DNA of 34,365 nt from Thermoanaerobaculia bacterium (GTDB lineage Bacteria > Acidobacteriota > Thermoanaerobaculia > Multivoradales > JAHEKO01). Position numbers and translations under genes: made by a program. The notes below the pieces were generated by a model. That model did no database searches and was not told the DNA's origin. It was given only the letters and a program-made list of their open reading frames with translations. The stretch covers positions 1 to 34,365 of the forward strand of contig CALZIK010000184.1 in assembly GCA_945787635.1 (NCBI GenBank), in the 5' to 3' direction. Positions 9,581 to 30,142 of this stretch are shown here, piece after piece. Position 1 is the first letter of the stretch. Every line of letters begins with the position of its first letter.

Positions 9581-9622
9581 CGGTTGGAGTCTATCCGCTG
9601 GCCAAAACCAGTCCAACACAAT

Positions 9623-9630: not shown

Positions 9631-9673
9631 TCACGTTTCGCGCTGAGCCGAACCCGCTGACAAGGAAGCCTTT

Positions 9674-10057
9674 TTGAGTCTCGCCCTAGCCGTTTTCGCA
9701 GGCATCGCCGTCGCCGCGACGCTCTGGTTCCTGATCCGGCTGGCCGCTCAGCGCAGCCAGCTCGTCAAGAGTCTGGCCTTCCCTCTCTACGTAGCCGCTC
9801 TCGCCGTCGGCCTCAAGATCTTTACCCTCTTCGAAGCCGAGTCCATTCGAGAGCTGGCCCACTTCGACGTCGTACTCGCCGGCGTCCTCACATTCCTGAT
9901 CGCCATCGTGGTAATTCGCGTAGTCGGGCTGATCTTTTTTGACGTCTATCTCCACTCGAGCCGGGGCGTTCGGCTGCCGCCGCTTCTGCCCAAGGTCGCG
10001 ATCGGCACCTCCTACCTGATCGCCGCGATTCTGGTCATCAAGCTCGTCGGCTCTTGA
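9674..10057 (+). CDS. Small four-helix membrane protein (resembles the N-terminal part of MscS-type channels)
   Basis: 127 residues from a TTG at 9674; the AAGGAAG at 9662-9668 fixes this start. Four hydrophobic helices at about 2-22, 34-52, 64-90 and 107-126. The segment 'DVYLHSSRGVRLPPLLPKVA' (90-109) resembles the loop before the pore helices in some large mechanosensitive-channel-like proteins, but the MscS pore helix and beta domain are absent, so it would be only the sensor-paddle part. That likeness is weak. Its TGA overlaps the TTG of the next gene (TTGA), so the two are translationally coupled. Function unknown. Confidence 0.7.
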   Translation: MSLALAVFAGIAVAATLWFLIRLAAQRSQLVKSLAFPLYVAALAVGLKIFTLFEAESIRELAHFDVVLAGVLTFLIAIVVIRVVGLIFFDVYLHSSRGVRLPPLLPKVAIGTSYLIAAILVIKLVGS

Positions 10058-11226: not shown

Positions 11227-11243
11227 CAGAAAGAAGAGCGCGA

Positions 11244-11259
11244 CCGCCCCTCGGGGCGG
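11244..11259. terminator. GC-rich hairpin between convergent genes
   Basis: CCGCCCC, TC, GGGGCGG: a seven-base-pair perfect inverted repeat (realistically five to six pairs with a tetraloop or larger) in the 73-base gap between the TPR gene and the convergent cupredoxin-like gene. It has no T-run on either side. Probably a shared bidirectional terminator. Confidence 0.45.
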
Positions 11260-11299
11260 CCGCACGGTAGCTCATCGGACGCTTCGCCCGAGGTCGCGG

Positions 11300-12070: not shown

Positions 12071-12124
12071 TCCGACAGACCTCCTTGTAACTTGTTGGGG
12101 AGAACGCCGGACCCGGAGGGCCCG

Positions 12125-15055
12125 TTAGTTGAGATTCCACCAGATGTGGTCGCGCAGCGCAACCGTCACCTGGCCGGCGTCGGCGAGGAAGGCGTTGAGC
12201 TCTTCCTCCGACTCGAAGTAGCGCATCATCTCGCGCTTCTGGGCTGAGAACATGGGCGCCTCGATCGCCTGCGCGAGTGGCGATTGGTAGGTGCCGTCTT
12301 TCATTTTCTGGAAGTTGGCCGGCATGTTGGTGCCTCGCACCCACGACTGCGGGTCGGTGACCCACTCGGGCACCCAATCGTGGCGCAGCCGATCGGTCGC
12401 CAGCAGGAGCGACGGCGCCAGCTCCGCCGCGCTCACCCCGGCGACTGTGGAAGCCGACGGTCCCGCCGGGTGGCACTTCGCACACTGGAGCATGTTGAAG
12501 GTGACCCGGCCGACGGTCAGATTGCGCCCGTCGGGGCGACTCGGAGTCGAAAGGAAGGACTCGCGCTGGTCCCGGTGGGTGAAGTAAGACACCACCGTAT
12601 TGACTTGCTCGTCCTCGAAACCGAAGGTCGGCATGCGCGCGTTGAGCCAGGGCCTCATGGTCACGCTCGAGGGGTCGTGGAGGTAGCCAAAGAGCCAGTC
12701 CGCCTGCACCCGAGCGCCCTCGGACGCCAGGTTGGGCGGAAGCTGAGCGACATCCTCGAGAGCCGTCTTGATCGCTTGGCCTTCATCCTCGATCAAGTGG
12801 CAGCCCTGACAGTTGTAGCTGGTGATGAGCTTGCGCCCGGCGGCCAGAGCGGCTGCCCCCGGTGCCTGGTCGGCGCGCCGGCTCGACACAACATAGTCCT
12901 TCGTAAAGCCGAGCACGTTCGCGGTCACGGCCTCGGCCTCTCGCTCCGACATGCCAAAGTTGGGCATCCGGTAGAGCTCCGAGTACGACTTCACTTCTTC
13001 TTTGCCCTCGTCCCAAATGCGGGGCTCGAGCATCTTCGTCTTGATCCAGTCGTGGCGAGTGTGCGGAACGTCGTGGATGTGACCGAAGTCGAACTGGTGA
13101 ATTGGCTTCGAGCCCTCTTCGGTCAGCTCCACGCCGATCGGCTTGGCTTTCTCGAATCCGGCCACCTCGTGGCAGCCCCAGCAGCCGTACTTCTGGATCG
13201 TCTCCTCGCCGAGATATCGATCCCGCGCCCCGTCGTCCATCTTGTCGAGCTCGGCGTGGCTGCGCTCGATAGTCAGGTTGTTCTGCAGGTACTCGAGAAC
13301 CAAGGCGTCGCGCGTCTCGTGGTCGACCGCGGGGAGCTCGGCGTCTTCGAACTCGGGCGCCCTGCTGGTCAGCAGGTAGGCGGTGATGTCGGCCGCCTCC
13401 CGGTCGGTCAGTCGCAAGCTGGGCATCCGCGTCGCGGGGTTGTACTGCTTGGGGTCCTTGAGCCAGGCGAAGAGCCACCCGCTCGAAAGCTTGCTTCCGG
13501 CCCGGATCAGGTTGGGCCCGTGGAGTCGGTTGATCTGCGGAAAAAAGTCGTCGCGCTTGGCGTCGGCGTCGCGAATGTGGCAACCGGTGCAGCCAACGGT
13601 TTCGTAGAGCTCTTGCCCGCGGGCCACGTCGCCGGCCGGCGCCGGTGGGTACTCGGGGCTCTCCGACTGTGACCAGATGTAGGCGACCATCGAGCGGATC
13701 TCGGCTTTCTGGCGTTCCAGATTCTCGGGCGAAGTCGTGTTGGGCTGGAAGAAGAAATGCGGCATCCAGGTCGTCGGGCGAAACTCGCGCGGCGCCGAGA
13801 TCCACTTGTAGGCGAAGCCCTGCGAAACCTTGGAGGCGACCTTGTGCAACGCCGGTCCCGGCCTGGGCAGATCTTCAAAGGCCGGATAGTCGATCTTGTG
13901 GCAGACGTAGCAGCCCATCTTGTTGATCAGCTGACGGCCGGCATCCTGGTGCTCCGACTCCGGCGTCCAGACATTGCCGGCATGGCAACCGATGCAACCG
14001 GACTCGGAGTAGTTGGCCGGCACAATCGGCATCTCGAGGTACTTCTGTGGCTTCCAACCCCACTTCTCCCTCCACTCCTGCTCCTGCTCCTTGCTGGTCG
14101 GCGAGTGGCCCGCACGCGCGAAGTCCGTGGCGCGATCGAGCCCCCCGTGGCAGGTCGTGCAGCCGAACGTCGTGTACGGATGCGGCGAAGAGGCGCTTAA
14201 GAAGAGATCCAGCCGGGGATGACTGCGAAAGGGCTGCTCCCAGGTCTCGTCGTCAAAACCGGCGCGAGTCGAGGCCACGTGACAGGTCATGCAGCGGTCG
14301 ACGCGGTCCACGTCGGTGAAGTTGATGTCGTTGTAGAGCCCCGAGAGAATGACTTGCTCGATCTTGAGATCGGGTAGGACGAAGTCCATGAACGGAGCAT
14401 TGAGGACGTAATAGTCGATCTTCTTGTCTAGGCTCGCGACCCGGTGCTGGAGGTTGTCGTAACCAGATCTCAACGCCGCCAGCCGCTTTTCCGACGACTC
14501 GAGACCGCTGCGCTTGGACTCGATATCGGCTTCGAGCGATTTTTTCTGATCCGCAAAAGACTCGAGCTCCTTGCGCTGCTCCAAGTGCGTTGCGGCCAAG
14601 CGTTCGACCTCCGCCCGGACCTCGGCGATGCGGCCCTCGTCGCCACTCTGCAAGGCCACGTCGAACTGGAACCGTTCGGTATCGAGTAGTGATTTCGTGG
14701 TCCGCGAGCGCGCGTCGGCAGCGTAGAGATTCTTGCCCGTCGCGACGAGCGCGTCCTCGAGCTCATCCAGCTCGTTGCGCTTGTTCGCCAGGGCGGCTTC
14801 CTCACCGGCGATGTCCTCTTCGATTCGCGCGATGTCGTTCTCGTTGAGCTTGGCGCGCTCGGCTTCGGCCTCGGTCACCAGCTGCTCGCGCTCGAGCTCC
14901 CGAAACTCCGCCTGAAGGCGCTTCCACGGCTTGGCATAGTCGTCCCAGACCATCCACAGGGTGGTCACCAGCAGAGCGATCGAGCTCCAGGCGAACACCG
15001 CGTTCATGCCGCGGAAGTTGTAGTGCCGATCGGGGATCTTTTTGGGCGCTGCCAT
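12125..15055 (-). CDS. Membrane-anchored octaheme c-type cytochrome of a bc-type complex
   Basis: 976 residues. One N-terminal membrane anchor (about 18-37), a long coiled coil (about 43-212, heptad-rich Glu/Lys/Leu), then eight heme c motifs CxxCH at 255, 299, 354, 382, 489, 625, 749 and 858. The first four are close together; the last four lie in separate modules of roughly 110-135 residues, each with class I cytochrome features such as 'TRMPSLRLTDREAADITAYL' (542-561), where the Met could be a sixth heme ligand. No cleavable signal is evident, so the anchor stays. It sits six bases after the subunit IV gene in the operon with Rieske and cytochrome b, in the place of cytochrome c1 or f. It would carry electrons from the Rieske centre outward. 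Confidence 0.9.
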   Translation of the reverse strand: MAAPKKIPDRHYNFRGMNAVFAWSSIALLVTTLWMVWDDYAKPWKRLQAEFRELEREQLVTEAEAERAKLNENDIARIEEDIAGEEAALANKRNELDELEDALVATGKNLYAADARSRTTKSLLDTERFQFDVALQSGDEGRIAEVRAEVERLAATHLEQRKELESFADQKKSLEADIESKRSGLESSEKRLAALRSGYDNLQHRVASLDKKIDYYVLNAPFMDFVLPDLKIEQVILSGLYNDINFTDVDRVDRCMTCHVASTRAGFDDETWEQPFRSHPRLDLFLSASSPHPYTTFGCTTCHGGLDRATDFARAGHSPTSKEQEQEWREKWGWKPQKYLEMPIVPANYSESGCIGCHAGNVWTPESEHQDAGRQLINKMGCYVCHKIDYPAFEDLPRPGPALHKVASKVSQGFAYKWISAPREFRPTTWMPHFFFQPNTTSPENLERQKAEIRSMVAYIWSQSESPEYPPAPAGDVARGQELYETVGCTGCHIRDADAKRDDFFPQINRLHGPNLIRAGSKLSSGWLFAWLKDPKQYNPATRMPSLRLTDREAADITAYLLTSRAPEFEDAELPAVDHETRDALVLEYLQNNLTIERSHAELDKMDDGARDRYLGEETIQKYGCWGCHEVAGFEKAKPIGVELTEEGSKPIHQFDFGHIHDVPHTRHDWIKTKMLEPRIWDEGKEEVKSYSELYRMPNFGMSEREAEAVTANVLGFTKDYVVSSRRADQAPGAAALAAGRKLITSYNCQGCHLIEDEGQAIKTALEDVAQLPPNLASEGARVQADWLFGYLHDPSSVTMRPWLNARMPTFGFEDEQVNTVVSYFTHRDQRESFLSTPSRPDGRNLTVGRVTFNMLQCAKCHPAGPSASTVAGVSAAELAPSLLLATDRLRHDWVPEWVTDPQSWVRGTNMPANFQKMKDGTYQSPLAQAIEAPMFSAQKREMMRYFESEEELNAFLADAGQVTVALRDHIWWNLN

Positions 15056-16961: not shown

Positions 16962-17600
16962 TCAACTCACTTCCAGATAGGAGCTGGGATCGTCCCATTG
17001 GCCTTGCTCCCAGAGATACTTTTGGGCCTTGTCGACCAGGATCTGTCCGTCATCGGGATCGATCGAGATCCTCGCGCGCTCGAGCGGCCGAGGCGTGGGG
17101 CCCTCGAAATTGATGCCGCTCTTGTAGTAGCCGCTGCCATGGCAGGGGCACTTGAACTTGTTCTGCGCTTCCAGCCACGCTGGAGGGCACCCCAGATGGG
17201 TGCAGATCGCGATGAGCGCGGTCAGCTGTCCCTCGTTGTTGACGATCCAGACCCCGTACGACTCCTTGAACCTCTCGTCCACGACGCCCGGGGGAAAGTC
17301 TTCGGGCTGGCCGACCTTGAACGAGGTCGGCGGCTCGAACAAAACGTTGGGAAACATGAAACGGCCGAAGGCGGTCATGCAGCCACCGATGGCCGCGGTA
17401 AAGCCCACCCAGGCGACCGCGGCCCAGGAGAACAGGCCGCGTCGGGTGATCTCGGCATCCGATGCCGCCCGCTTGGCGACCGGCGGCTTCGCCGGAGCCT
17501 TTTTGGCCGGACTCGGCTTGGCTGAAGACGTGTCGACTGCGGGCTCCGAAGCCTCCGGGGAATCGTTGTCAGCGGCCGGAGTGCTTTTTTCTTCTGTCAT
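16962..17600 (-). CDS. Rieske iron-sulfur protein of the bc-type complex
   Basis: 212 residues. The [2Fe-2S] cluster is held by 'CTHLGC' (133-138) and 'CPCHGS' (151-156), with the two Cys/His pairs and the disulfide cysteines intact. The N-terminus is a Pro/Ala/Lys-rich stretch of about 50 residues, then '[20 protein letters not shown]' (51-70), a twin-arginine-type signal that stays as membrane anchor. The protein takes one electron from quinol at the Qo site and passes it to a c heme, here presumably in the octaheme subunit. It is the first gene of the operon 17600-11300. The C-terminus '[16 protein letters not shown]' is about 20 residues longer than minimal Rieske proteins. Confidence 0.96.
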
Positions 17601-17665
17601 CAGCTGATCTTGCTAATGGTTTCGCCCAACAAATACGGAGCGCTCACTGGCGTCAAGATGCCGTA

Positions 17666-17693
17666 CTCTTACGTGAAGCGGCTGACCTGTCAA
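17666..17693 (-). promoter_or_regulatory. Possible promoter of the Rieske/b/octaheme operon
   Basis: On the minus strand: TTGACA (17693-17688), a perfect -35 box, then 16 bases, then TAAGAG (17671-17666), a weak -10 box. A second TTGACG (17656-17651) follows, with TATTTG 15 bases further on. Either would give a leader of about 20-65 bases to the Rieske ATG at 17600. The region is only 94 bases wide and is shared with the divergent gene at 17695. Confidence 0.4.
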
Positions 17694-17694
17694 G

Positions 17695-19209
17695 GTGAAT
17701 CGCCCCGCGCCGCAAGCTCACGTGACGAAGATCAAACAGGCCTCGAGAACCCTCTTGCTCGCGCTCGTGGTGAGCGCGAGCGCCTCGGTGCAGTCGGTCT
17801 CCGCGAGCGCATTGCAAGCCCGTCAGGGCGAGTTGGTCGAGGGGTTGATCGCCGCGCGACGGGCCGCGGCGACGGAATCCGCGGACGCGGCCCCTTCCGA
17901 TGTCGCGGCGGCCGAGCGCTATGCAGCCTACCTGCCGTCGAACTACTCGCCCGAGCGCTCCTGGCCGGTCTTGATCGTGATGGATCCCCGAGGCCGGGCT
18001 GCGGCGGCGGCCGAGATCTTTCGACCCGCCGCCGAGCGCTTCGGCTACCTCGTGTTGAGCTCCGAGAGCACTCGAAGCGACCTCCCTGCGGAGATCGCGG
18101 ATCCCAATGAGCCCGCACTACGAGCGCTTCTCGAGACCGCGGAAACGCAGTACGGCGCCCAACCCGACCGGATCTACCTGGCTGGATTCTCCGGCACCTC
18201 GCGCTTCGCCTGGATGGCCGGCGAGGCCTTGCCCGACAGGATCGCCGGAGTGATCGGCGTCGGTGGTGCGCTTCCCGGGCCTTGGTCGGAGTGGAGCCGG
18301 GTCGGTTTCTCCTACTTCGGGGCCGCCGGCCGCCACGATTTCAACCACCGCGAGATGCGCGAACTCGACGAACTCCTCGACGGCGTCCTGCCGCACCGCT
18401 TCCTGTTCTTCCCGGGCGTTCACCAGTGGCTGCGGCCGCAGGACGCCGAGCAGGCGTTGGGCTGGATGGAGCTCGAGGCCATGCGTCGCGAACTCGCGCC
18501 CAAGCGCGCCGCTCTCGTCGAAACCCTGTTGCGCGAGCGTCTCGAAGCCGCCGAGATCGCGGAGCGCGAGGCAAGGCTATTCGAGACCTTCGAGATCCTG
18601 CTCGCGGTCCTCGAGGATTTCGAAGGTCTGAGCGACGCCGCCGTGCTCGAGCCGGTGCGCGCCCGGGCCAGCCGGCTCGCGACCGACGATCGCGTCACTC
18701 GAGCCAACCTCGAGGTCGCAAGCGCGGTCGAAGTCGAGACGAACTACCGCGAACGTGTCGGAGCGGTTGTACGACGGATCGCCTACGAGGCCTCGCCCCC
18801 GACGGCAGCCGAGTTGGCGCGCGAACTCGACCTCACCCACCTGCGAAAGCTGGCCGATGGCGATTCGATCGCAGCGGACTCCGCGCGAAGGCAGCTCGAG
18901 ATCGCGTATGTCCACATGGCTATTATGACGCCGCCCGGCCTGCTCGCCCAGAAGGCCCCCCGGCGCGCCGCTCTCAGCCTCGAGCTCGCGACGATGGTGT
19001 TCCCCGACCGGCCGCTTTCGTGGTTGCGGCTCGCCGAGGCTCGCGCGCTAGCCAGCGCGAAGAAAGCCGCGATCGAAGCGCTCGCCAAGGCCGTCGAGCT
19101 CGGTTTTACCAACGCCGACTACCTGCGCACTCACGAGGGCTTGTCCGCCCTGCGCACCGAAAAAGGTTTTCAGAAACTCGTCGAGCTCGCCGAAGCGGCC
19201 GGCGAGTAG
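17695..19209 (+). CDS. Secreted alpha/beta-hydrolase-like protein with helical C-terminal repeats
   Basis: 504 residues from a GTG at 17695; a second GTG at 17722 (residue 10) would give a tidier signal peptide and neither has a strong ribosome site. Hydrophobic 19-32, cleavage near 'SVSASA' (35-40). The hydrolase domain (about 75-260) has 'WPVLIVMDPRGRA' (90-102), the nucleophile elbow 'AGFSGTSR' (Ser166) and candidate triad partners Asp215 ('AGRHDFNHRE') and His243 ('GVHQW'). Residues 260-500 are alpha-helical and end in TPR-like repeats ('ALAKAVELGFTNADYLRTHE'). This layout resembles secreted esterases/phospholipases. Substrate unknown. It stops three bases before the convergent cytochrome c gene. 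Confidence 0.75.
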   Translation: MNRPAPQAHVTKIKQASRTLLLALVVSASASVQSVSASALQARQGELVEGLIAARRAAATESADAAPSDVAAAERYAAYLPSNYSPERSWPVLIVMDPRGRAAAAAEIFRPAAERFGYLVLSSESTRSDLPAEIADPNEPALRALLETAETQYGAQPDRIYLAGFSGTSRFAWMAGEALPDRIAGVIGVGGALPGPWSEWSRVGFSYFGAAGRHDFNHREMRELDELLDGVLPHRFLFFPGVHQWLRPQDAEQALGWMELEAMRRELAPKRAALVETLLRERLEAAEIAEREARLFETFEILLAVLEDFEGLSDAAVLEPVRARASRLATDDRVTRANLEVASAVEVETNYRERVGAVVRRIAYEASPPTAAELARELDLTHLRKLADGDSIAADSARRQLEIAYVHMAIMTPPGLLAQKAPRRAALSLELATMVFPDRPLSWLRLAEARALASAKKAAIEALAKAVELGFTNADYLRTHEGLSALRTEKGFQKLVELAEAAGE

Positions 19210-19212
19210 CCG

Positions 19213-19587
19213 TTACTGCAGCGAACGCATGTAGGCGACGATCAGCGCCAGGTCGGCCTCGGTCAGAATCGGGTTGCCGCCCTTGGGTGGCATGTCGACG
19301 CCCCGCTCGTTGAGGGGGTCGCCCGCCGAGCGTCCCTTCTTGAGGAACTCGACGAGCTCGGCATCGGACAAGCCCTTGGTGAACTGGTTAGCATGGAGGT
19401 TCTTGCCGAGCTTGGGCATGCCTTCACCGTCCGGGCCGTGACAGGTCGCACAGGTCCCCTTGAACAGTTTGTGGCCCTCGGCGACTTTGGCGTCATCCGC
19501 GCCACCGCCGCCTCCACCGCCACAGGCGGTCCAACCGATTCCGAGCACGGCGATCCCAGCCGCGGCCATGAGCTTCTTGTGATTCAT
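19213..19587 (-). CDS. Monoheme cytochrome c lipoprotein of the nos cluster
   Basis: 124 residues. Lipoprotein leader with Cys22 followed by seven glycines. One heme site, 'CATCH' (46-50), with 'DMPPKGG' providing Met99 as the likely sixth ligand, so a class I cytochrome c of about 80 residues after a short linker. The final helix 'LTEADLALIVAYMRSL' is typical. It lies 32 bases after nosL and is probably in the nos operon. Clade II nos clusters often encode small cytochromes (NosC1/NosC2), so this is the best candidate here for passing electrons to NosZ; that role is inferred from position. Confidence 0.88.
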   Translation of the reverse strand: MNHKKLMAAAGIAVLGIGWTACGGGGGGGADDAKVAEGHKLFKGTCATCHGPDGEGMPKLGKNLHANQFTKGLSDAELVEFLKKGRSAGDPLNERGVDMPPKGGNPILTEADLALIVAYMRSLQ

Positions 19588-19619: not shown

Positions 19620-20060
19620 TCAGCTATCGCCTGATCGAGCTTCCCAGCTCTCGACCAGCTCGGACCACGAGTAGCTCGGCCCGGCGCCGTCTTGCGCACC
19701 GCCGACCTCCCGGGCCGTCCAACCCGACCCCATCGGCGTGATCCGACTGGGGTCGCGGGCGAACACCGCTCGTTTCGCCTCGAGCCATGAGGAGTCGCCG
19801 ACGTCATGAACCCAGACCGTGGATGTCTCGAGGTCGCGGTCACGAACCCAATTCAACAAGCAGCCGAGATCATCGAACACCGCCCGTTCGCCGCCGACAG
19901 CCTCGACCGCGGCCGCGTATTTTTCCTCGCTCACGATCATCCGGCAGTGACCGCATTCCACTTCGCCGTACGCGATCTCCGGCGGCCCGGCCGCCGGGGG
20001 AGCCGAGCACGCTGCAACCCAAAGTGCGCCCGAAAACGCCATGGCCCCACCCGATCTCAC
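19620..20060 (-). CDS. nosL: NosL copper-binding lipoprotein
   Basis: 146 residues from a GTG at 20060 that overlaps the nosY stop (GTGA); this start, rather than the internal ATG at 20042, keeps the whole lipoprotein leader with 'WVAAC' (Cys18). NosL is a Cu(I) chaperone that delivers copper to NosZ. The family's metal motif is present as 'ECGHCRMIV' (35-43), with Cys36, Cys39 and Met41, and the domain continues with 'AVFDDLGCLLNWVRD' and 'WLEAKRAVFARDPSRITPMG', which are typical for NosL. Length is normal. The outer-face lipid anchor places it near NosZ and the NosDFY transporter. Confidence 0.9.
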   Translation of the reverse strand: MRSGGAMAFSGALWVAACSAPPAAGPPEIAYGEVECGHCRMIVSEEKYAAAVEAVGGERAVFDDLGCLLNWVRDRDLETSTVWVHDVGDSSWLEAKRAVFARDPSRITPMGSGWTAREVGGAQDGAGPSYSWSELVESWEARSGDS

Positions 20061-20893
20061 GCCACTTCTTCTCGTCGCGCAATGATGCGGGTCGCCAAAG
20101 CCAGTGGCACCAGCGCCCAGGCGATGAGAATGGCGCCCAGCGCCGGCAGCAGCGCGGAACCGAGCTCCCGAGAAGCCACCAGTCCTGCCGGACCGAGCAG
20201 CTCCAGACCGCCTCGGATGAGCTCTATCGCGGCCATGTTGAAGACACTGAGCGGGTTCCACAGGGCCAGCCCGAGCACCTGTCCGGCATCGAGTCCGAGC
20301 GCGGTGGCCGCCGCCAACGCGCCTAGATCTCCCACCAGCACCAGAAGCAGCCAGGCGAGGATCGCGATCCCGACCGCGCTCGAGGCGCGCTCGGAGACGA
20401 CCGAGACCAACAGCCCCACGCTGATCGACGCGGCGGCCAGAAGCAGCGCGAACCCGAGCAGACCGAAGTAGGGCAGAAACGACGCGCCCGAAGCCCCGGA
20501 GGAGACCAGGACGCCGGCCAGCCCGAAGCTCACCAGCATCGTTGCGCCGATCGCCAGCAACAGACCCAGAAACTTGCCGACGGCGAGCTCGAGAGCTCCC
20601 AACGGCTGCGCCAGAAGCAGGTTCCACGAGCCCCGGTCCCGCTCTCCCGCGATCGCTCCCGCCCCCATAGCCAGCCCTTGAAGCGGCACCACCAAGGCCA
20701 CGAGGTGAATCAAGCTGACCGCGGTTCGCCCCAGACCGGCAAACCCGCTTCCGGAAACGCCCGACTTCGCCAGCCAGGCCAATCCGAGCGCGGCCGCCAG
20801 GAAGCTCAGCGCAGAAACCAGGAACCATCGATTGCGGAAGGCTTCGCGCCGCTCGCGTTCCGCGAGCACCCAGATGCCTCGAAGCTCAGACAT
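20057..20893 (-). CDS. nosY: NosY, ABC transporter permease for NosZ maturation
   Basis: 278 residues from the ATG at 20893, which lies eight bases inside the end of the NosD/NosF fusion gene. About six membrane helices. It begins 'MSELRGIWVLAERERREAFR' with an elbow helix, as in ABC-2 type permeases, and contains 'AIAGERDRGSWNLLLAQPLG' (about 81-100), the cytoplasmic coupling-helix region conserved in NosY. It would pair with the NosF ATPase domain of the upstream fusion protein and couple ATP hydrolysis to the NosD part, supporting CuZ (sulfide/copper) assembly in NosZ. Overlaps both neighbours, so translation is tightly coupled. Confidence 0.92.
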   Translation of the reverse strand: MSELRGIWVLAERERREAFRNRWFLVSALSFLAAALGLAWLAKSGVSGSGFAGLGRTAVSLIHLVALVVPLQGLAMGAGAIAGERDRGSWNLLLAQPLGALELAVGKFLGLLLAIGATMLVSFGLAGVLVSSGASGASFLPYFGLLGFALLLAAASISVGLLVSVVSERASSAVGIAILAWLLLVLVGDLGALAAATALGLDAGQVLGLALWNPLSVFNMAAIELIRGGLELLGPAGLVASRELGSALLPALGAILIAWALVPLALATRIIARREEVA

Positions 20894-23834
20894 GCTCGCT
20901 CTCAGGATTGTCGTCGAGGTCGATGTCCTCGATCGCGGCCCCGCTGGCGCAGACCGTTTGCAGAAGGCCCGCTTTGTCGCGTTCACGCACCGAAACCGCG
21001 AGCCAGTCGAGCTCGATGGCGACTTCGTACCCAGCGCCGGCCAGTTGCCTCTCGAGGCGGCTCCGGTCGTCTTCGTGGGCCCGTAGCCGTATCCGAACCT
21101 GCTCGTCGCCGAGCACCTCTTCGGGGGTGCCCGCCGCCGCCAACCGGCCGTTGTCGAGGCGCAGAACGCGATCGGCGAGGAACCGCACTTCGCCCGCGCG
21201 ATGCGAGGCGAAGATCAGGGTCTTGCCGGCCGCCTTGAGCCGCTGGAGGTAGGCCAGCAGGGTCGCGCGCGTTCGGCCGTCGAGGTTCGCCGACGGCTCG
21301 TCCAGGAGCAGAATCGGCGGATCCCCGATCCGGGCCACCGCCAGAGCCACCCGCTGCCGCCAGCCTCCGGAGAGTGTTTCGACGAGCTGATCGGCGCGGT
21401 TCTCGAGCTCGAGCTCGGCCAGTAGCCGCTCCACTTCCTCGAGCGTCGCGCCGCGCAGGCGTGCAAATCCAAGCAGCGTCTCGCGCACCGTGAAGCCCGG
21501 CAAGAAACCGAAGCTCTGCGGCACATAGCCGATGAGCGAGCGCACCGCGCGACCCGCGGTGCGCGGATCCAGGCCCTGAACTCGGACCTGTCCCTTGTAG
21601 CGGGCGAGCCCCAAGAGGACCCTCAGGGCGGTCGTCTTACCGGCCCCGTTGCCGCCCCAGAGCGCCGTCGCCCGACCGGCGGCGACCTCGAACGAGACCC
21701 GATCGAGGGCCGCCGTCTCCCCGAAGCGCTTGGTCACGACGTCGAAATGCACTGCCGGAAGAGCCGGCGCTTCGCCAAGCCTCGGTTCTCGCTCCCGCCC
21801 GGGTGGGGCCGGCCCGGATCGGCGAACTATGCCGGCGGCAAAAGCGCCGCAAACGAGAAGCAACGCCGAGAACGCCCTCCAACCTCCGCCTCCCGTCGTC
21901 GGCAGCGGCGGAACGCCGGCCAGTGCGATGCCGCTCGAACGCGGAGCGGGATCGGTCAATTTGGGCTGCGGCCTGACCGCCGGCAGAACTCGGGCTGCGA
22001 AGTCCAGAAACCGCGCCGCCAGACCCAGAGAGAAGATCTCGAGCTCCGGAGCCCGGTCCGAAAACGCCTCGAACAAGCGTTCCGAGCGGTACGGGACGTC
22101 GCCGGTGCCGTCGCCATCGACATCGAACCCTTCGTAGTCGCTCCAGTAGTTGCCCACCCAGCGATTCTCGGCAACCGAGGCTCCACCGCCTCGGATCGAA
22201 ACCTGCTCCTGATTCTCTTCGAATGAATTGTCCAGAAACTCCGCTCGCCGGACATTCGGAAGCAGAACCACGCCTGCGTCGTTGCCGACGAAGCGATTGC
22301 CCTCGAGCCGTGCGCCGCTCGTGATCTCGCGCGGCGAGTTGTCGAGAAACGCGCCGACCCGGTTGCCCAGGAAGAGATTCCCGCGGACCTCGGCGTCATC
22401 CATGTCCTTCAGGCCGACCCCGTAGCCGCTCGGACCGTGATTGCCCGCCACGGTGTTTCCGTGTAGCCGCAAGCGGCGCGAGTACATCAGGAACGCGCCG
22501 ACCGAGTTGTCGACGAGCAAGTTGCCGCGAATCGTCGCGTCGTCACAGTACATGAAGTGGAGGCCGTAGCGGCCCCTCGCGACCTCATTGTCTTCGACCA
22601 GAAGGTCGTTCGAATACCAGAGCACGACGTCCCGGCTATCCCTGACCCGGTTGCCGGTGAGGGCCACCCGATCACTTTGCCAGACTCGAATCGCGTCACC
22701 CCGGCGCGGCAGGTCGAAGTTCTTGCCGGTGATGACGTTTCCCTCGATTCGAGTATCGGACGCTGCTCGCAGATAGATCCCGAAGAGGACGTCCTCGAGA
22801 CGGTTGCCGGCGATCCGCGCCCGCGGCGCCCCGACGGCGATGCCCGCGTTCTCCTGGTCGAGGGACTTGCCGCTGCCGCGAATCGAGAAACCGCTGACCT
22901 CGACGCCGGGCGCCGTCACCGAGACGACCGTTCCGCTGCCACCGCCTTCCAGCACCGCTCCAGCCCGGCCCCTGAGGACGAGCTGCCGATCGAGCTCGAA
23001 CGGACCGCGATGGACGCCCCCTTCGACGACGATCACGTCGCCCGCTACGGCCGCCGCCACGGCTTCAGCCAGAGCGCGCCCTCCGGACTCGGACACCGTG
23101 ATCTCGAGGGGTTCGGCGAGCGACACGGCGCCGCTCGCCAAGGCCGAAAGTGCCCCCACCAGCAGGATCGACAGAGCGTTACCACCTCTCCGCTCGGCTT
23201 CGACCAGGGGCTTGTAGGCCCGCCGATGCAGGTAGAGGCCGGTCACGATCACGAGCGTCGCGACCGTCGCCAGGATCAGTCCGGGTCCCGGTCGTGCGAC
23301 CGTCGCGAACTGGCCGACGTACCCGGTGCCCAGAACCGGTGGCACGAACGGCTTGATCGACGATGACAGCGGCGCAGTCGGATCGAGGTTGGTCCCGAAG
23401 TCTCGCAACCAGTAGGCCAGGTCGGCCAGGAAAAGCACCGGAAAGGCGAGCGCGGGCAGAGCCAGGTAAGCCGCCCGCCGGTTGTGCAGAAACACCGCAC
23501 CGACAACGAGGAGAGCGATCGCCGACACCGCGATGACCGACACCGAGCGCTCCAGCTGGGCCGCCTCGGCCATCGGCCGCATGCCGATGTAGTGATTGAG
23601 CCCGTCGACCTCGGCGACATCGCCCTCGAGGCGATTGAGATACGTGCGAATTTCGAGCCCCTTCGGATACTGCGGCGCCTTGAGCACCATCACCCAGTAG
23701 GGCAAGAAGATCGACGCGACCAGGAGCCCGGCAGCGGTTGCCAGCAGCAGGCTCGGAGCGAGGAACCGCATCGGATGAGCCTCTGCTACGGCCCGCGGCA
23801 CCCGGGGGCCCAAAAGACTGGAGTGTTCTCCCAT
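20886..23834 (-). CDS. Fusion protein: NosB-like membrane domain + NosD + NosF ATPase
   Basis: 982 residues in one uninterrupted frame. Part 1 (about 22-215): four membrane helices with 'LPYWVMVLKAPQYPKGLEIR' (44-63) and 'GLNHYIGMRPMAE' (78-90), like the membrane protein NosB between nosZ and nosD in clade II clusters. Part 2 (about 240-600): NosD, a right-handed beta-helix of repeated units ('GNRVRDSRDVVLWYSNDLLV', 394-413) after a second signal-like helix (220-240), outside the membrane. A helix (653-671) returns the chain to the cytoplasm. Part 3 (about 693-915): NosF ABC ATPase with Walker A 'GGNGAGKTT' (727-735), Q773, signature 'LSGGWRQR' (821-828), Walker B 'ILLLDEP' (841-847) and His878, then about 70 extra residues. 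Start at 23834 or 23771. These parts are normally separate proteins. Confidence 0.9.
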   Translation of the reverse strand: MGEHSSLLGPRVPRAVAEAHPMRFLAPSLLLATAAGLLVASIFLPYWVMVLKAPQYPKGLEIRTYLNRLEGDVAEVDGLNHYIGMRPMAEAAQLERSVSVIAVSAIALLVVGAVFLHNRRAAYLALPALAFPVLFLADLAYWLRDFGTNLDPTAPLSSSIKPFVPPVLGTGYVGQFATVARPGPGLILATVATLVIVTGLYLHRRAYKPLVEAERRGGNALSILLVGALSALASGAVSLAEPLEITVSESGGRALAEAVAAAVAGDVIVVEGGVHRGPFELDRQLVLRGRAGAVLEGGGSGTVVSVTAPGVEVSGFSIRGSGKSLDQENAGIAVGAPRARIAGNRLEDVLFGIYLRAASDTRIEGNVITGKNFDLPRRGDAIRVWQSDRVALTGNRVRDSRDVVLWYSNDLLVEDNEVARGRYGLHFMYCDDATIRGNLLVDNSVGAFLMYSRRLRLHGNTVAGNHGPSGYGVGLKDMDDAEVRGNLFLGNRVGAFLDNSPREITSGARLEGNRFVGNDAGVVLLPNVRRAEFLDNSFEENQEQVSIRGGGASVAENRWVGNYWSDYEGFDVDGDGTGDVPYRSERLFEAFSDRAPELEIFSLGLAARFLDFAARVLPAVRPQPKLTDPAPRSSGIALAGVPPLPTTGGGGWRAFSALLLVCGAFAAGIVRRSGPAPPGREREPRLGEAPALPAVHFDVVTKRFGETAALDRVSFEVAAGRATALWGGNGAGKTTALRVLLGLARYKGQVRVQGLDPRTAGRAVRSLIGYVPQSFGFLPGFTVRETLLGFARLRGATLEEVERLLAELELENRADQLVETLSGGWRQRVALAVARIGDPPILLLDEPSANLDGRTRATLLAYLQRLKAAGKTLIFASHRAGEVRFLADRVLRLDNGRLAAAGTPEEVLGDEQVRIRLRAHEDDRSRLERQLAGAGYEVAIELDWLAVSVRERDKAGLLQTVCASGAAIEDIDLDDNPESEHV

Positions 23835-23858: not shown

Positions 23859-25880
23859 CTACGAGGGGCTCGCCAGCAGGTATCCAACCATCTCGAGGTG
23901 GAGGGCGGAGCAGAACTCCGAGCAATAGTAAGTGTACACGCCGGATTCTTCGACGTCGAACTCGAAGGTCGTGCTTTCACCCGGCTCGAGACTCAAGTTG
24001 ATGTTGTAGGCCGGCAGTGCGAATCCGTGCGTCGCGTCCTTGGCGCGCTCGACGTTGGTGATGTGCCAGATCACATGGTCGCCCTTCTTCACTTCCACCT
24101 TCTCGGGAGTGAAATGGCTGCGGACGCCGGTCATCCAGATCTCGACGGTCTTACCTCTTCGCTCGACCTTCTCCTCACCGATCGCCACCGCGTGCGGGTC
24201 CAGAGCTTGCTGAATGGGATTCCAGCCCGCCTCCGGATAAACCTCCCAGGCCTTGAGCTTGTCGGCCTTGATCATCTGCACGTAATGAGGCTCGCCGATG
24301 CCAATCGCCATGTCGTAGAGAAGCTTCATCGAAGGCCCCTTGCCGGAGATGTCGATGAGCTGGAAGTTCTGCGGATGCAACGGACCGACGGTGAGGAATC
24401 GATCCACCGACCACTTGTTGAGAGCCACAAGGTATCCACCGTCCGGGCTCACCGTGTCGCCTTCGGCGGCGACGATGTGGCCGACGTTGTAGTGCACCGG
24501 AATCTTCTCGACCAAGGTCCAGTCGGCCTCGTCGTGACCACCTGCGTACGCGCCACCGAGCGTCCAGCGGGCGACCGCGGTATCCAGGAACAGGCTGGTA
24601 TACGCGTAGCCCTTGTCATCGAACTGGGTATGCAGCGGTCCGAGACCGAGCTCGATCTGGGTCTCGAGCGCCGCGTCGAAATCGATGATCGGGACCCCAT
24701 AGTCGTCCTTGCCCGAGAAATTCTCGGCCGCGATCGCAGCCTGGATCTTGTCCCAGCCAAAAATGGTCACATGGGGGTCGAGCTTGCCCGAAACCACCAT
24801 GTACTCGCCGCCGGGCGTGACATCGATGCCGTGGGGGCTCTTGGGCTCGGGCAGGAAGTAAAGCACACCCTCGGCGATCGCGGTCTCGAGCGTCAGCACC
24901 GGGAAGTCGTTGACGGTGGTAGTCGCGCCGGCGGCCGCCAGCTCCGCCGCCTTGCGCCAGTCGATGATGTGAAGGTAGTCCATGTCTCGCTGTGAGGCAC
25001 CGGCTTCGAACGGCGGCTTGTCGTCCTCGATTCCCCCTGTCGCCATCTCGGTGTTGAACGAGTTGCACAGAAGCCAACCATCGCTCACCGCCTTGCCGGC
25101 GTCACAGAGATCCTGCCAGTAGGGCGGCAGCTCGATAGCGAAGGACTCTCCCGGAACGACCCGGCCGGCGCTTCGGTCGAACTTCCACATCGTGACCATG
25201 CCCCGGTACTCCTCGGCGTACTTGTCGAGAGAAGCGTACTTCCAGCCCAGGGGAGCCGCGTACTGACCGCCCTCGATGACCCATTCGGTGTTCGGGGTCA
25301 CGAACGTGCCGCCGTGGTCCGAAAGGGCAATCGGGTTCTTGACGAGCTGCTTGGTTTCGAAGTCCCTCAGGTCGACCACCGCGATCCGGGCGTGCGCCTT
25401 GTCGTTGATGAACACGAACTCGCCGTCGTAGTCGCCCCCGGTCTCACTGAGCGCCGGATGGTGGGTGTCGGCCCAGGTTATGTCACGGCCTTCGACTTTG
25501 GCTCCGTCGAGGACCGCTCGGGTCTCGTCGGAGTACCCCCAGCCCTGCCAGGGCTCGGGCGTGAAGACTCCGATGACCTTGAGAAGACGCATCGAAGGCA
25601 CTCCGATCACCAGAATCTGCCCCGAGTGTCCGCCCGAGGCAAACATCACATAGTCATCGTAACGGCCCGAGGGGACAAAGGTCTTGACCGCCGCGTAAAC
25701 GTCGTCGGGAGTCAAACCGCGCTCCTGGATGACCGCATTGGAGTCGCCGGCGACGTCGACGCTACCGAGCTGCACTTCGCCTCCGCCGGTCTTGCACGAC
25801 CATGCAAGAGCCACCAGAGCGACCATCACGATGCCGGCGATCGAAAGATATCTGCTTCGAGTTGACTGCGAGTTCTTCAT
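23859..25880 (-). CDS. nosZ: Nitrous oxide reductase, clade II (Sec type)
   Basis: 673 residues. It reduces N2O to N2 outside the cytoplasm. The leader 'MKNSQSTRSRYLSIAGIVMV' lacks a twin-arginine motif and is a Sec-type signal, possibly ending at Cys29, a hallmark of clade II. The seven CuZ histidines are visible: His140, His141, His189, His350, His417, His468 and His532, in the family's order and with matching spacings in several intervals. The C-terminal cupredoxin domain has CuA ligands His618, Cys653, Cys657, His661 and Met664 ('CSEFCSALHLEM'). A strong ribosome site AAGGAGG (25893-25887) precedes the ATG by seven bases. First gene of the nos operon; no nosR or nosG/H gene lies in the window. 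Confidence 0.97.
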   Translation of the reverse strand: MKNSQSTRSRYLSIAGIVMVALVALAWSCKTGGGEVQLGSVDVAGDSNAVIQERGLTPDDVYAAVKTFVPSGRYDDYVMFASGGHSGQILVIGVPSMRLLKVIGVFTPEPWQGWGYSDETRAVLDGAKVEGRDITWADTHHPALSETGGDYDGEFVFINDKAHARIAVVDLRDFETKQLVKNPIALSDHGGTFVTPNTEWVIEGGQYAAPLGWKYASLDKYAEEYRGMVTMWKFDRSAGRVVPGESFAIELPPYWQDLCDAGKAVSDGWLLCNSFNTEMATGGIEDDKPPFEAGASQRDMDYLHIIDWRKAAELAAAGATTTVNDFPVLTLETAIAEGVLYFLPEPKSPHGIDVTPGGEYMVVSGKLDPHVTIFGWDKIQAAIAAENFSGKDDYGVPIIDFDAALETQIELGLGPLHTQFDDKGYAYTSLFLDTAVARWTLGGAYAGGHDEADWTLVEKIPVHYNVGHIVAAEGDTVSPDGGYLVALNKWSVDRFLTVGPLHPQNFQLIDISGKGPSMKLLYDMAIGIGEPHYVQMIKADKLKAWEVYPEAGWNPIQQALDPHAVAIGEEKVERRGKTVEIWMTGVRSHFTPEKVEVKKGDHVIWHITNVERAKDATHGFALPAYNINLSLEPGESTTFEFDVEESGVYTYYCSEFCSALHLEMVGYLLASPS

Positions 25881-26061: not shown

Positions 26062-26970
26062 TCAGACCAAGACTTTGCCCTTCGACTTGACCACGAAGAC
26101 CGGACACTCCGCCTCTCGGATCACCTGCTCCGCCGTGCTCCCGACCAGCAGTCGCTCGATTCCGCTCAGGCCGTGCGTTCCGATCACAAGCAACCCACAG
26201 TCGCTCTTTTTGGCGTGATCGAGAATCTCGGTTGCCACCCGCCCGACTCGAATCGAGGTCGTGTAGTTGACGTCCGACGAAAGCGTTTCGGCGGCGAGCT
26301 TGGCGAGCGCCTGACGCGCACGGTCCTGCCTCTGCGAGACCAGCTCGCTGTCGATCGGCAGGTAGAAGTACGGATAGGGGATTTCCTCGGCGACGTGCAG
26401 CAGCTCGATTCCGGACTGGTAGACATGAGCCAACTCTTGCGCGTAGCGGATGGTCAACTCGGAAGGCTCGGAGAAATCCACCGGTACCAGAATGCTCTTG
26501 ACCGCCTGCTCCCGGACGCTCCGCGCCCCGGCCCTGACGGTCAGGACCGGGCATGACGCGTGACGTGTGACGGATTCGGCGACACTTCCGAGAAACAGCC
26601 TCGCCGGCCCACGCCGACCGTGGGTCCCCATGACCACCAGATCCGCGTTGACCTCTTCGGCGTAGTCGAGAATCACTTCCGCGGCCGACAGGCCGCGCCG
26701 ACTGACCTGGCGCAGCGTCAGCGGCTCTCGGCCGTGCTGCTTGAGGAGGCCGGCCAGCCTCGAGTCCGCGATCTCGAACAGCTTTCGCAGTACCTCCTCC
26801 GAATTCGGAAACGCTTCATCGGGATTGTTGGGATCGAACTCATGCAGCACCAGGGCGTGCAGCATGTGAAGCTGCGCCTCGAATCGCTCGGCCAGAAACA
26901 GGGCCCGCCCGAGAGCCGCATTGGCGGAATCAGAAAAATCGGTGGGAAAGAGAATCGTCTCGACCTTCAT
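26062..26970 (-). CDS. Universal stress protein, tandem UspA domains (1)
   Basis: 302 residues made of two UspA domains (1-147 and 155-300). Both carry the ATP-binding pattern G-x2-G-x9-G-S: 'GTHG' 115-118 with 'GS' 128-129, and 'GTHG' 264-267 with 'GS' 277-278. Each domain opens with a strand and an Asp ('ILFPTDFSDS', 'ILVPVDFSEP'). It is therefore likely an ATP-binding, soluble stress protein. The ATG overlaps the stop of the next upstream stress protein (ATGA). Located between a two-component pair and nosZ; tandem Usp proteins are common members of hypoxia regulons such as DosR in mycobacteria, which makes a low-oxygen role plausible. Confidence 0.93.
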   Translation of the reverse strand: MKVETILFPTDFSDSANAALGRALFLAERFEAQLHMLHALVLHEFDPNNPDEAFPNSEEVLRKLFEIADSRLAGLLKQHGREPLTLRQVSRRGLSAAEVILDYAEEVNADLVVMGTHGRRGPARLFLGSVAESVTRHASCPVLTVRAGARSVREQAVKSILVPVDFSEPSELTIRYAQELAHVYQSGIELLHVAEEIPYPYFYLPIDSELVSQRQDRARQALAKLAAETLSSDVNYTTSIRVGRVATEILDHAKKSDCGLLVIGTHGLSGIERLLVGSTAEQVIREAECPVFVVKSKGKVLV

Positions 26971-27995
26971 GAGCTACCTCCTTCGCGAGGCGACTGCCTT
27001 GATGTCGAACCTTCAGGGCTCGGTACGCGCCAATGGGGCTCGGTCTGCTCGAGGACGGCCTCGGCCACCGAGGCCCCCATCGCCGTTTCGGGAGGAATCA
27101 CCAGCACCGGGCACGGCGACTCCGTGGCCACCGCGCGCGCGACGCTCCCCAGGAACGCCCGCTCGAAGCCGCCTCGCCCGTGGGTTCCGAGCATCACCAG
27201 GTCGGTCTTCAACCGTGCCGCCTCTTTGAGGATCTCACTCGCGGCGGGCCCCGTCCCGACCCGGCTCGACCGGCGGATTCGAGGCGCACCGGCGTGCTCG
27301 CGCCACATGTCCTCGAGCTCTTCCAGCGCGAACTTCTCTATCTGTTCCGGAGAAAACGGCTGAGCCAGAGTGCGTTGCAGCTCGCCGACGGCGTAGAACA
27401 ACTCCACCTCGGTTTTCGTGCCGCCGAGCTGCCGCAAAAAGGCGAGCCCGCACTCGAGCGCGTCCGCCGCGAGCAGCGAGAAGTCGGTAGGCGCGAGAAC
27501 GCGCTCGACCGGGAGCGACCACTCGCCACGCACCACCAGCACCGGACACCGCGCCCCGCGCAGCACCCTGTCGGCGGTACCGCCGAGGAATCTGCCCAGT
27601 CCGTCTCGATCGTTCGCTCCGACAACGATCAGGTCGGCGCCGGTCGTTTTGGCCGCCTCGAGGATCATTCGGTACGGACTGCCGGTCGCGACCCGTGAGG
27701 ACATCGGCACCGCGATATCGAGACGTTCCACCTGTGCCGCCAGCTCGTCAAGCTGGGCGTCAGACCATTTCTGTTGATAGTCGGCCTGCTCCCAGCCGGA
27801 GCCGGAGCGGGGCAAGTACACCTCCATCGGCAGCGCGTGCAAGATTTCGAGACGACCGCCGGCGGCTCGCGCCACGTCCACCGCCGCGCCGACCACGGCA
27901 TCGCTGCCCTCCTCGAGAGAGGAGCCCACGAGGATGGTGCGAATCGGCTTGAGCGCACTTCGGGCACGCTCGGCCCCTTCGTTGGGTGTGCTCAT
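26967..27995 (-). CDS. Universal stress protein, tandem UspA domains (2)
   Basis: 342 residues with two UspA domains (about 17-155 and 163-305) and a disordered tail rich in Ser, Pro and Arg. The first domain's nucleotide motif is degenerate ('GANDRDGLGRFLGGT', 126-140, with Asp in place of the second Gly); the second is intact ('GTHG' 270-273, 'GS' 283-284). It may bind one ATP only. A strong AAGGAGGG ribosome site precedes the ATG. Its stop overlaps the start of the downstream stress protein, so the two are probably made together and may pair. Confidence 0.92.
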   Translation of the reverse strand: MSTPNEGAERARSALKPIRTILVGSSLEEGSDAVVGAAVDVARAAGGRLEILHALPMEVYLPRSGSGWEQADYQQKWSDAQLDELAAQVERLDIAVPMSSRVATGSPYRMILEAAKTTGADLIVVGANDRDGLGRFLGGTADRVLRGARCPVLVVRGEWSLPVERVLAPTDFSLLAADALECGLAFLRQLGGTKTEVELFYAVGELQRTLAQPFSPEQIEKFALEELEDMWREHAGAPRIRRSSRVGTGPAASEILKEAARLKTDLVMLGTHGRGGFERAFLGSVARAVATESPCPVLVIPPETAMGASVAEAVLEQTEPHWRVPSPEGSTSRQSPREGGSS

Positions 27996-28150
27996 AGAGA
28001 GCGCCCTCCTTCCCGACTCAGCCTACGGGCGCTCTGGATTTCCTTCGACACCCGAGGAGACGGAGAGAGCCACGTCGAAGGGCTGCTCTCCGGCCACCCC
28101 AGCGGGCAGTGCCCGGAGTTCTTTCTCTGAAGTCGTCGCCGGCGCGCCGA

Positions 28151-28801
28151 TCAGTCCGGGGTCGGGGGATCGACCAGCCGATGTTTGAGGGCGTAGGCCA
28201 CTACCTGCGCGCGGTTGTGCAGGTGGAGTTTGTCGAGAATGTTACGGACGTGAAACTTTACGGTGTTTTCGCTAATGCCAAGCTGCTTGGCCAGCTTTCG
28301 ATTGGTGGTCACGCCGTCCACCATGAGCTCGAGAACCTCCTGCTCGCGATCGGTGAGCGCGTCTGGATCATCGCTCTTTCGGCCGGCGGGCCGGGCGAAT
28401 TCGTCGAGTAGCTTTCGCGCCAGAGACGGAGTCAGAGCCGGCTCGCCTCGGCCGACGGCCCCGAGCAACGAGAAAAACTCGTCCGCCTCGAGATCCTTGA
28501 GCAGATACCCCTTGGCTCCCGCCTTGATCGCCTCGAAGAGGCTCTCGTCGTCGTCGGAAGCGGTCAGGATGACGACCTTGATGTCCGGCAGCTCGGCGGC
28601 CAGGTGCTTGGTCGCGGCCAGGCCGTCCACCTCGGGCATCGCGAGATCCATCAACACGACGTCGGGTTTGTGCTCCCAGGCCTGCTCGACCGCCTCGCGG
28701 CCGTTGCTGGCTTCGCCCACGACCTCGAAGTCGCGCGCCGTCAGCAGGCTGCGCAGACTCTCTCTGAACAGGGCGTGGTCATCGGCGATCAGAATTCTCA
28801 T
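28151..28801 (-). CDS. NarL/DevR-family response regulator
   Basis: 216 residues. Receiver domain 1-120 with the acidic pocket Asp7/Asp8, phosphoacceptor Asp52 ('VVLMDLAMPEVDG', 48-60), Thr80 and Lys102. C-terminal LuxR-type helix-turn-helix 148-208 ('LTDREQEVLELMVDG', 'NRKLAKQLGISENTVKFHVR'). All key residues are intact. It starts three bases after the kinase stop, so kinase and regulator form a pair in one transcript. The targets are unknown; the adjacent stress-protein genes and the nos operon are the obvious candidates. No clear inverted-repeat target site was found by eye. Confidence 0.94.
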   Translation of the reverse strand: MRILIADDHALFRESLRSLLTARDFEVVGEASNGREAVEQAWEHKPDVVLMDLAMPEVDGLAATKHLAAELPDIKVVILTASDDDESLFEAIKAGAKGYLLKDLEADEFFSLLGAVGRGEPALTPSLARKLLDEFARPAGRKSDDPDALTDREQEVLELMVDGVTTNRKLAKQLGISENTVKFHVRNILDKLHLHNRAQVVAYALKHRLVDPPTPD

Positions 28802-28804
28802 AAT

Positions 28805-30142
28805 CTAGTCCTCCATCCGTGGCAGCTCGAACAATACACGGGTTCCGCCGCCCTGACGCGAATTGATCCGCAAACGGCCACCCGCACTCTCGGCCCGCTC
28901 GCGCATAATACTAAGGCCAAATCGAGGCAGCTCGGCCCTGGCCACCGATTCGGGGTCGAAGCCCGTTCCGTCATCCTCGACTATCGCCTCGAGACCGACC
29001 GAGTTGTGCCTCACGCTCACACGAACCTTCTTCGCCTTGGCGTGCTTGCGGACGTTCGCGAGAGACTCCTGGATCACACGCACGAGTTGCAGCTCGACGC
29101 GCGGAGGCACCGAGAGCGGTTCATCGATCTGGATCTCGCCGCCGATGCCGCTCGAGATCTTCCACTGCGCGAAGTATTCTCTGAGCACGTCTTCGAGCGG
29201 CCGGTCGCCGGAGGGCTGGGACCGCAAAGCCAGAATGCCTTCCCGGACGTCCGTGTAGGCCTCCCGAGCCGCCACCGCGAGCTGATCCAGCTGCTCACTG
29301 GCTTGCTCGTTCTTGCCCGACTTGAGGTACTGCTGCACCGCCTGCGCCTTGGTGTTGACATAGGCCAGAACTTGGGCCATACCGTCGTGCATCTCCCGTC
29401 CGATGCGGGTCCGCTCTTCGGTAATTGCAAGGTTTTCCAGCTCATGATGGAGGTAGGACTTGTCGATCGCGACCGCGGCCGTGGCCGCGAAACGAACCAG
29501 GGTCTCCTCGTCCTCGTCCGAGAACTCTTCGTCCGCGATTTTATCGGTCAGATAGAGGTTGCCCAGAAACGGCCCCTGACAGAGGATCGGAACCGCTAGC
29601 AGGCTCGACATCTTCGGATGGTTGTCGGGAAAGCCGCTGGACCGAGGGTCACGGTCGATCTCGGCGATCCGCAGGTGGCGCTCCTCGTGCAGAACCACGC
29701 CGAGAAGCCCCTTGCCCGCCGGTGGAGAGCCGATCGCCGCTCGTCGCTCCTCGCTCAGCCCGCAGGTCACGAACTCCACGATCTGCTGATGGTCGCCGAT
29801 CACCGACAGCGCTCCATAGCGCGCACCCACCAGCTGACAGGCCTGGTCGACGACCTTCTGAAGGACCGTGGTGAGCGCCAACTCACCATGGATGTCGCGT
29901 GCCGCCGAGTCGAGGGCGAGAAGCTCACGGTTGCGCCGCTCGAGGCGTTCGTGGGTCTGGGTCAGCACCGAGAAGACAGCGCCGACCAGAAAGAGCACCG
30001 CGAGGGCCACGACTCCCGCCCAAACGATCCTGCCCGCCAGGGTCGCGAGATAGGGCTCGAGCCGGCCCCGAGCGAACTCGAGAAACAGGATGACCAGCAC
30101 GAGGCCGGCGAGCGAAGCCCACTTGAGTCTCTTGATTCCCAT
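28805..30142 (-). CDS. GAF-domain sensor histidine kinase (NarX/DevS type)
   Basis: 445 residues: two N-terminal membrane helices (about 10-22 and 38-60), a GAF domain (about 85-230), a HisKA_3 dimerisation region with phosphoacceptor His252 ('REMHDGMAQVL'), and the ATPase domain (N box 'QESLANVRKHA' 358-368, G box 'EDDGTGF' 389-395, 'RFGLSIMRERAESAGG'). The GAF domain has 'ARYGALSVIG', 'GKGLLGVVL', 'GFPDNHPKM' (170-178) and 'FLGNLYLTDK' (192-201), a pattern like the heme-binding GAF domain of the mycobacterial oxygen/NO sensors DevS and DosT, where a His in the matching loop binds heme; here that would be His175. Heme binding is not shown, only suggested. Confidence 0.92.
   Translation of the reverse strand: MGIKRLKWASLAGLVLVILFLEFARGRLEPYLATLAGRIVWAGVVALAVLFLVGAVFSVLTQTHERLERRNRELLALDSAARDIHGELALTTVLQKVVDQACQLVGARYGALSVIGDHQQIVEFVTCGLSEERRAAIGSPPAGKGLLGVVLHEERHLRIAEIDRDPRSSGFPDNHPKMSSLLAVPILCQGPFLGNLYLTDKIADEEFSDEDEETLVRFAATAAVAIDKSYLHHELENLAITEERTRIGREMHDGMAQVLAYVNTKAQAVQQYLKSGKNEQASEQLDQLAVAAREAYTDVREGILALRSQPSGDRPLEDVLREYFAQWKISSGIGGEIQIDEPLSVPPRVELQLVRVIQESLANVRKHAKAKKVRVSVRHNSVGLEAIVEDDGTGFDPESVARAELPRFGLSIMRERAESAGGRLRINSRQGGGTRVLFELPRMED

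Follow-up and report, generated by a model that had tools for sequence, protein, structure and literature searches.

How is the copper supply of nitrous oxide (N2O) reductase built when NosB, NosD and NosF are encoded by a single gene? NosDFY and NosL supply copper to the reductase, NosZ. The question is raised by a contig of a Thermoanaerobaculia bacterium (CALZIK010000184.1), which we analysed over its whole length of 34,365 nucleotides and call the window. On its minus strand, at 20886-23834, one frame runs from ATG to stop through 982 residues without an internal stop. A preliminary description had read this frame as a NosB-like domain, NosD and NosF in one protein, and the open frame together with matches to TIGR04247, ABC_tran and the solved complex 7o0y bears the reading out. 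We conclude that in this gene, nosBDF, three neighbours in an ordinary clade II nos operon have very probably been joined in frame. Judging from the families of its parts, the product probably works as a NosDFY copper-loading ATP-binding cassette (ABC) system for NosZ.

When the full protein was searched against families, NosD scored above the TIGR04247 cut-off (391.8 bits against 300, residues 255-632, profile positions 1-375 of 377) and matched Pfam NosD at 8e-43, NosF was recognised (ABC_tran, residues 710-848, 6e-29) and NosB was identified by its motif. Solved NosD (7o0y chain A) aligns to residues 272-628 and solved NosF (7o0y chain B) to residues 694-938; in a fold comparison, the modelled full chain matched the NosF of NosDFYL (7osf_B) best. 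Because the summed PDB-search scores of some two-domain ABCA chains exceed those of NosF, the NosF assignment leans on context. The source genome holds one NosD of this type. Hydropathy places four helices in the NosB domain (24-42, 98-116, 121-139 and 184-202) and two further helices at 221-239 and 652-670, the latter followed by RR. This agrees with the membrane helices first drawn at 220-240 and 653-671, and the resulting topology works.

The NosB label is supported by the exact LNHYIGM motif, which is invariant across the NosB alignment, by the four helices and by the position directly downstream of a clade II nosZ. LNHYIGM and YGHN are the two published NosB motifs (PMC9697520), and four helices are stated for NosB (PMC11388526). 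Residues 1-212 gave no Pfam match and no convincing solved-structure relative by sequence. The second motif is not matched, FGTN standing in the window for YGHN, and this loss of a histidine could be taken as the mark of a decaying, non-functional nos gene. Nonetheless, the same position varies in most aligned homologues (GQN, GLN, GMN, GTN), many of them in otherwise intact clusters, and YGHN is thus not strictly defining for NosB. With the ATPase motifs complete and the nosZ, nosY, cytochrome and Rieske genes intact, decay is scarcely credible.

The minus-strand operon has the order nosZ, nosBDF, nosY, nosL, cytochrome c (Table 1), and the first 8 bases of nosY overlap the end of nosBDF. The marks of a clade II nos operon are present: NosZ is of the Sec type (TIGR04246), nosB adjoins it, and Rieske and cytochrome genes lie near.

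Table 1. Features of the nosBDF gene and its operon in the window
Feature	Coordinates	Strand	Basis
nosBDF fusion gene, 982 aa	20886..23834	minus	open frame, families, homologous fusions
NosB domain, residues 1-212: four membrane helices and extracytoplasmic beta sheet with LNHYIGM	23199..23834	minus	hydropathy, alignment, AlphaFold2, motif
Former NosD signal peptide, now internal, residues 219-240	23115..23180	minus	hydropathy; alignment with separate NosD signal peptides
NosD beta-helix domain, residues 241-632	21939..23114	minus	TIGR04247, PDB 7o0y_A
Return membrane helix, residues 650-670, then RR	21825..21887	minus	hydropathy, model; also ends separate NosD of relatives
Cytoplasmic linker to NosF, without Met or plausible internal start	21756..21824	minus	start-site scan
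NosF ATPase domain, residues 694-982: Walker A, LSGG signature, Walker B, H-loop	20889..21755	minus	sequence, families, PDB
Shine-Dalgarno-like GGAGAGGTGG 5' of CTG codon	23182..23191	minus	-12.3 kcal/mol
nosZ, clade II (Sec-dependent) N2O reductase	23859..25880	minus	TIGR04246 841 bits, cut-off 625
nosY permease	20057..20893	minus	ABC2_membrane_2; PDB 7o0y_D 5e-20
nosL copper chaperone lipoprotein, weak family score	19620..20042	minus	PF05573 22.2 bits, cut-off 24; synteny
Cytochrome c, after nosL in most relatives	19213..19587	minus	family match, synteny

To place the fusion among relatives, we scanned the contigs of named genomes as well as genomes of the order, phylum and class, and scored a fusion where NosB, NosD and NosF share one stop-to-stop frame. 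NosD and NosF lie in one frame in 20 sequences of the set and in separate frames in about as many, and such NosD-NosF (D-F) fusions are commoner than NosB-NosD-NosF (B-D-F) frames. Full B-D-F frames were found in the window, in G043 of the same order (L020, 1082 aa, on a 170-kb contig) and in a Poribacteria metagenome-assembled genome (MAG; L033, 1198 aa), so that the fusion sought in related genomes does recur; an Omnitrophota sequence (L055) has a NosB-NosD (B-D) frame and then reaches the contig end. The Poribacteria frame (L033, 513-4106) carries two tandem NosB copies ahead of NosD-NosF within its 1198 residues. The Z-B-D-F-Y-L order is constant across the group, and the fused parts are exact neighbours. 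This NosD type is carried by 7 of the 149 genomes of the class. Among the five nearest relatives, three (G003, G006, G026) have a separate NosB and a fused D-F, one contig (G016) stops inside NosD, and in G043 all three are fused.

The earlier statement that these are separate genes in described clusters is incomplete: NosB stands apart in most of the closest relatives, but many Chloroflexota-type genomes, and that of Thermomicrobium roseum, encode D-F as a single gene. Separate genes in close relatives had also been named as grounds for refuting the fusion. NosB is indeed separate in most of them, which dates the fusion rather than refutes it.

These comparisons bear on the possibility that an assembly join or a sequencing error merged separate genes. 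The assembly consists of 203 contigs, the window being one of 34 kb, and the separate NosB of G003, G006 and G026 would fit such an error. Against it, the same fusion occurs independently in G043 and L033, and the complete isolate genome of T. roseum has a 783-aa D-F gene (L072, 7509-9860 in NC_011961.1, WP_012643063.1). The contig does not look like a mis-join because it keeps the operon order of the relatives, and no ATG, GTG or TTG in the window would give NosD with a whole signal peptide at the B-D junction. An artefact is very unlikely on this evidence. RefSeq names the T. roseum fusion as NosD only, leaving the ATPase half unnamed. D-F fusions are thus already present in sequence databases and are not new there. 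No description of a NosD-NosF or B-D-F fusion was found in the literature searched, which did not cover subscription papers such as clade II reviews; NosB-NosL and NosB-NosC2 fusions are already in the literature (PMC9697520, PMC11409646).

The relatives also suggest how the merger may have arisen. Nothing follows the beta helix in distant NosD (L025, L026, L074); the NosD of the Chloroflexota and Acidobacteriota group have an extra short stretch and a membrane helix, with nosF within a few bases or overlapping. A C-terminal membrane helix has been reported for Bacillus azotoformans NosD (PMC3475470). The claim that NosD is a free periplasmic protein fails for this lineage, where even unfused relatives carry the C-terminal helix. 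The sequences form a graded series, from NosD without the helix, through NosD with the helix next to nosF and D-F fused, to B-D-F fused. Each fusion is a small step because unfused relatives already have the C-terminal helix of NosD next to nosF. Loss of the stop after this helix would yield a D-F fusion with NosF correctly on the inside.

In the tree, the window falls in a supported clade of six (97/98), all of them D-F fused and two of them B-D-F. The D-F fusion requires 7 changes on the tree and a single origin is rejected (approximately unbiased (AU) test, p value = 0.00016); the B-D fusion requires 4 changes, with a single origin again rejected (AU p value = 0.0044). A change may mean that a fusion was gained or that it was lost, and support is weak on several of the inner branches. 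The placement of the window and G043 as sisters is not rejected (p value = 0.225). The nosBDF merger is a recurring variant of the known NosDFY maturation system and not a new machine.

We then asked of each joint whether its two sides would stay together. For the NosD-NosF joint, the best start codon and Shine-Dalgarno energy near the old NosF start were compared with other stretches of the same fused gene. Across the D-F fusions an internal NosF start signal stands out with a combined p value of 5e-5, somewhat inflated by near-duplicate rows and driven by L035, L036, L038, L043, L058, L024, L031 and L040. The strong sites reach -15.8 kcal/mol in L035, -11.9 in L036, -11.2 in L058, -10.7 in L043, -10.4 in L038 and -9.3 in L031, and these six genes may yield NosF on its own in addition to the fused protein. 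One gene could in this way give two products, an internal start also making NosF (or NosD) alone and restoring the ratio of two NosF per NosD. Sites left over from a recent fusion would look no different, however, and some of those seen may be of that kind. No such site is found in L021, L023, L041, L056, L072 or L075, nor at the D-F joint of the window, where no internal NosF start is usable and the best candidate, a GTG at -1.7 kcal/mol, is unremarkable; for NosD the window offers only a CTG with a Shine-Dalgarno-like stretch. For the window we regard two products as improbable. As NosD and NosF share a frame without a plausible internal NosF start, the separate NosD, NosF and NosY chains that characterise NosDFY are not found here. 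NosD-NosF of the window is probably one chain, to which NosB may or may not stay attached.

The NosB-NosD joint differs in that all four B-D fusions retain the signal peptide of NosD together with a site at which cleavage is plausible. The window reads NALSILLVGALSALASGAVSLA/EP (a slash marks the candidate cut), with the site SLA/EP between A240 and E241, and the other joints read LSPPAAA/DD in G043 (L020), TTLDA/AT in L033 and PEAYA/KT in L055. On balance we favour a cut by signal peptidase after A240, which would free NosB and leave the NosD-NosF chain as the lasting unit. The covalent link of all parts proposed at the outset is thus seen in the single frame, but between NosB and NosD it may be removed. 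The 982-residue chain could instead stay whole, with six membrane helices and NosB, NosD and NosF permanently at 1:1:1. No stop breaks the frame, the hydrophobic stretch 221-239 is long enough for a membrane helix and has RR shortly before it, and the window site looks the weakest of the four. The textbook A-x-A sites of other B-D fusions (PPAAA/DD in L020, AYA/KT in L055) speak for cleavage, as do residues 228-240, which are modelled with a predicted local distance difference test (pLDDT) score below 50, unlike the better modelled return helix. An uncut chain is conceivable but somewhat doubtful. The CTG preceded by GGAGAGGTGG is, speculatively, a relic of the nosD start.

The fbcH gene of Bradyrhizobium encodes a cytochrome b/c1 polyprotein that is cut by signal peptidase. 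There, as in nosBDF, a membrane protein runs into the signal peptide of a partner that is exported, although the proteins are unrelated. A different nos cluster, from the same genus as the window genome (L027 of G001, 9129-12509, minus strand), has NosR (residues 90-684) and NosD (722-1090) fused in one frame, at most 1127 aa long; the link between them is a NosD signal peptide in which cleavage is again plausible (ANPADA/AR). Unrelated partners seem to have become fused to the NosD N-terminus more than once.

In the working model that we prefer, NosB would thread the membrane with both ends inside, and the former NosD signal peptide would send NosD across. NosD would then be held to the membrane, its return helix leading back to the cytoplasm and joining it to its own ATPase. 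NosF would pair with a second NosF under two NosY, and through this pair each complex would contain two NosD. NosL would hand copper to NosD, and NosD would hand it to NosZ, in a cycle driven by NosF, as known NosDFYL work suggests.

A close known system is NosDFY of Pseudomonas stutzeri (7o0y, 7osf), whose NosD beta-helix, NosF and NosY match by sequence and whose NosDFYL NosF is closest in ATPase fold. There, however, the proteins are separate chains, NosB is no part of the complex, and each solved entry holds one NosD, two NosF and two NosY. The tension with this 1:2:2 ratio had been pointed out before and is real, as PDB chain counts show (NosD, 16 chains in 16 entries; NosF, 30 in 15; NosY, 34 in 17). 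Clade II clusters of Chloroflexota type with separate nosB, nosD and nosF (L037, L045, L054) share the gene order, NosB and the tail-anchored NosD, but have three genes where the window has one. T. roseum shares the D-F junction with its membrane helix and the clade II operon, whereas its NosB is a separate gene. The NosB-NosL (Bacteroidota) and NosB-NosC2 fusions likewise join NosB to a Nos maturation or electron-transfer protein, though with other partners and without NosD or NosF.

Several points weigh against our interpretation. The full-chain model has a predicted template modelling (pTM) score of 0.52, and its low inter-domain confidence means that it is no test of the assembly. A complex with two NosD conflicts with the only solved stoichiometry (1:2:2), and cleavage after A240 is a reading of the motif and not the prediction of a trained tool. 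NosL scores under its family cut-off (PF05573, 22.2 against 24). Finally, judged from this contig alone, there may be a single-base error at the B-D junction of this MAG.

Rows from annotated plasmid records were left out of the structure modelling. The NosB domain by itself gave a confident AlphaFold2 model (pLDDT 94). It runs through a helix, three strands, a short helix with LNHYIGM, two helices, two strands and a final helix, and places the invariant H81 and M85 of the motif on the predicted extracytoplasmic side. The closest PDB chains are claudin, TARP and MP20 (best Foldseek E value 1.3e-3, low TM-scores, hardly any sequence support). The claudin fold itself consists of four helices and an extracytoplasmic sheet of five strands in a characteristic order. 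Claudin-type chains align with a VIA Z of 10.7 over 158 residues at a root-mean-square deviation of 3.5, but helical bundles reach middling Z easily. The structure matches also included DUOXA1, which serves in the maturation of a redox enzyme. A literature search linking claudin with N2O reductase returned nothing relevant, and the claudin-like fold is a lead only. Building on the model, one might go further and suppose that the D-F fusion forces a 2:2:2 NosDFY or one idle NosD, and that NosB does not carry electrons but is a subunit of the copper-loading system with a claudin fold, whose H81 and M85 would be possible copper ligands facing NosD; we consider this combination rather unlikely.

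The remaining genes of the window add context. A 402-aa open reading frame at 19620-20828 was considered as a large NosL and rejected, its upstream part overprinting nosY in another frame. nosY was not found in the gap at 17600-19213, which is filled by a plus-strand hydrolase-like gene (17695-19209, 504 aa) with a weak polyhydroxyalkanoate-depolymerase-type match and a tetratricopeptide repeat end. This gene interrupts the nos / cytochrome bc block from the opposite strand. Beyond it lie a Rieske protein, a split cytochrome b and, adjoining them, a 976-aa cytochrome c protein with several c-type heme domains (12125-15055, minus strand). Directly upstream of nosZ (26062-30142, minus strand) are two double universal-stress proteins and a NarX/NarL-like two-component pair, which are possible regulators.

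NosZ is the main known enzyme that removes the greenhouse gas N2O. Where annotation misses the NosF half of a fused gene, surveys that count separate nosF will report nosF as absent in these genomes. A passage in PMC9697520 cites NosB as essential to N2O respiration in Wolinella. Gene fusions point to proteins that work together, and since NosB is joined to NosD and NosF in several lineages, we argue that it belongs with the NosDFY machine. The D-F fusion in turn is a natural protein for a direct test of stoichiometry, and the cultured T. roseum carries one.

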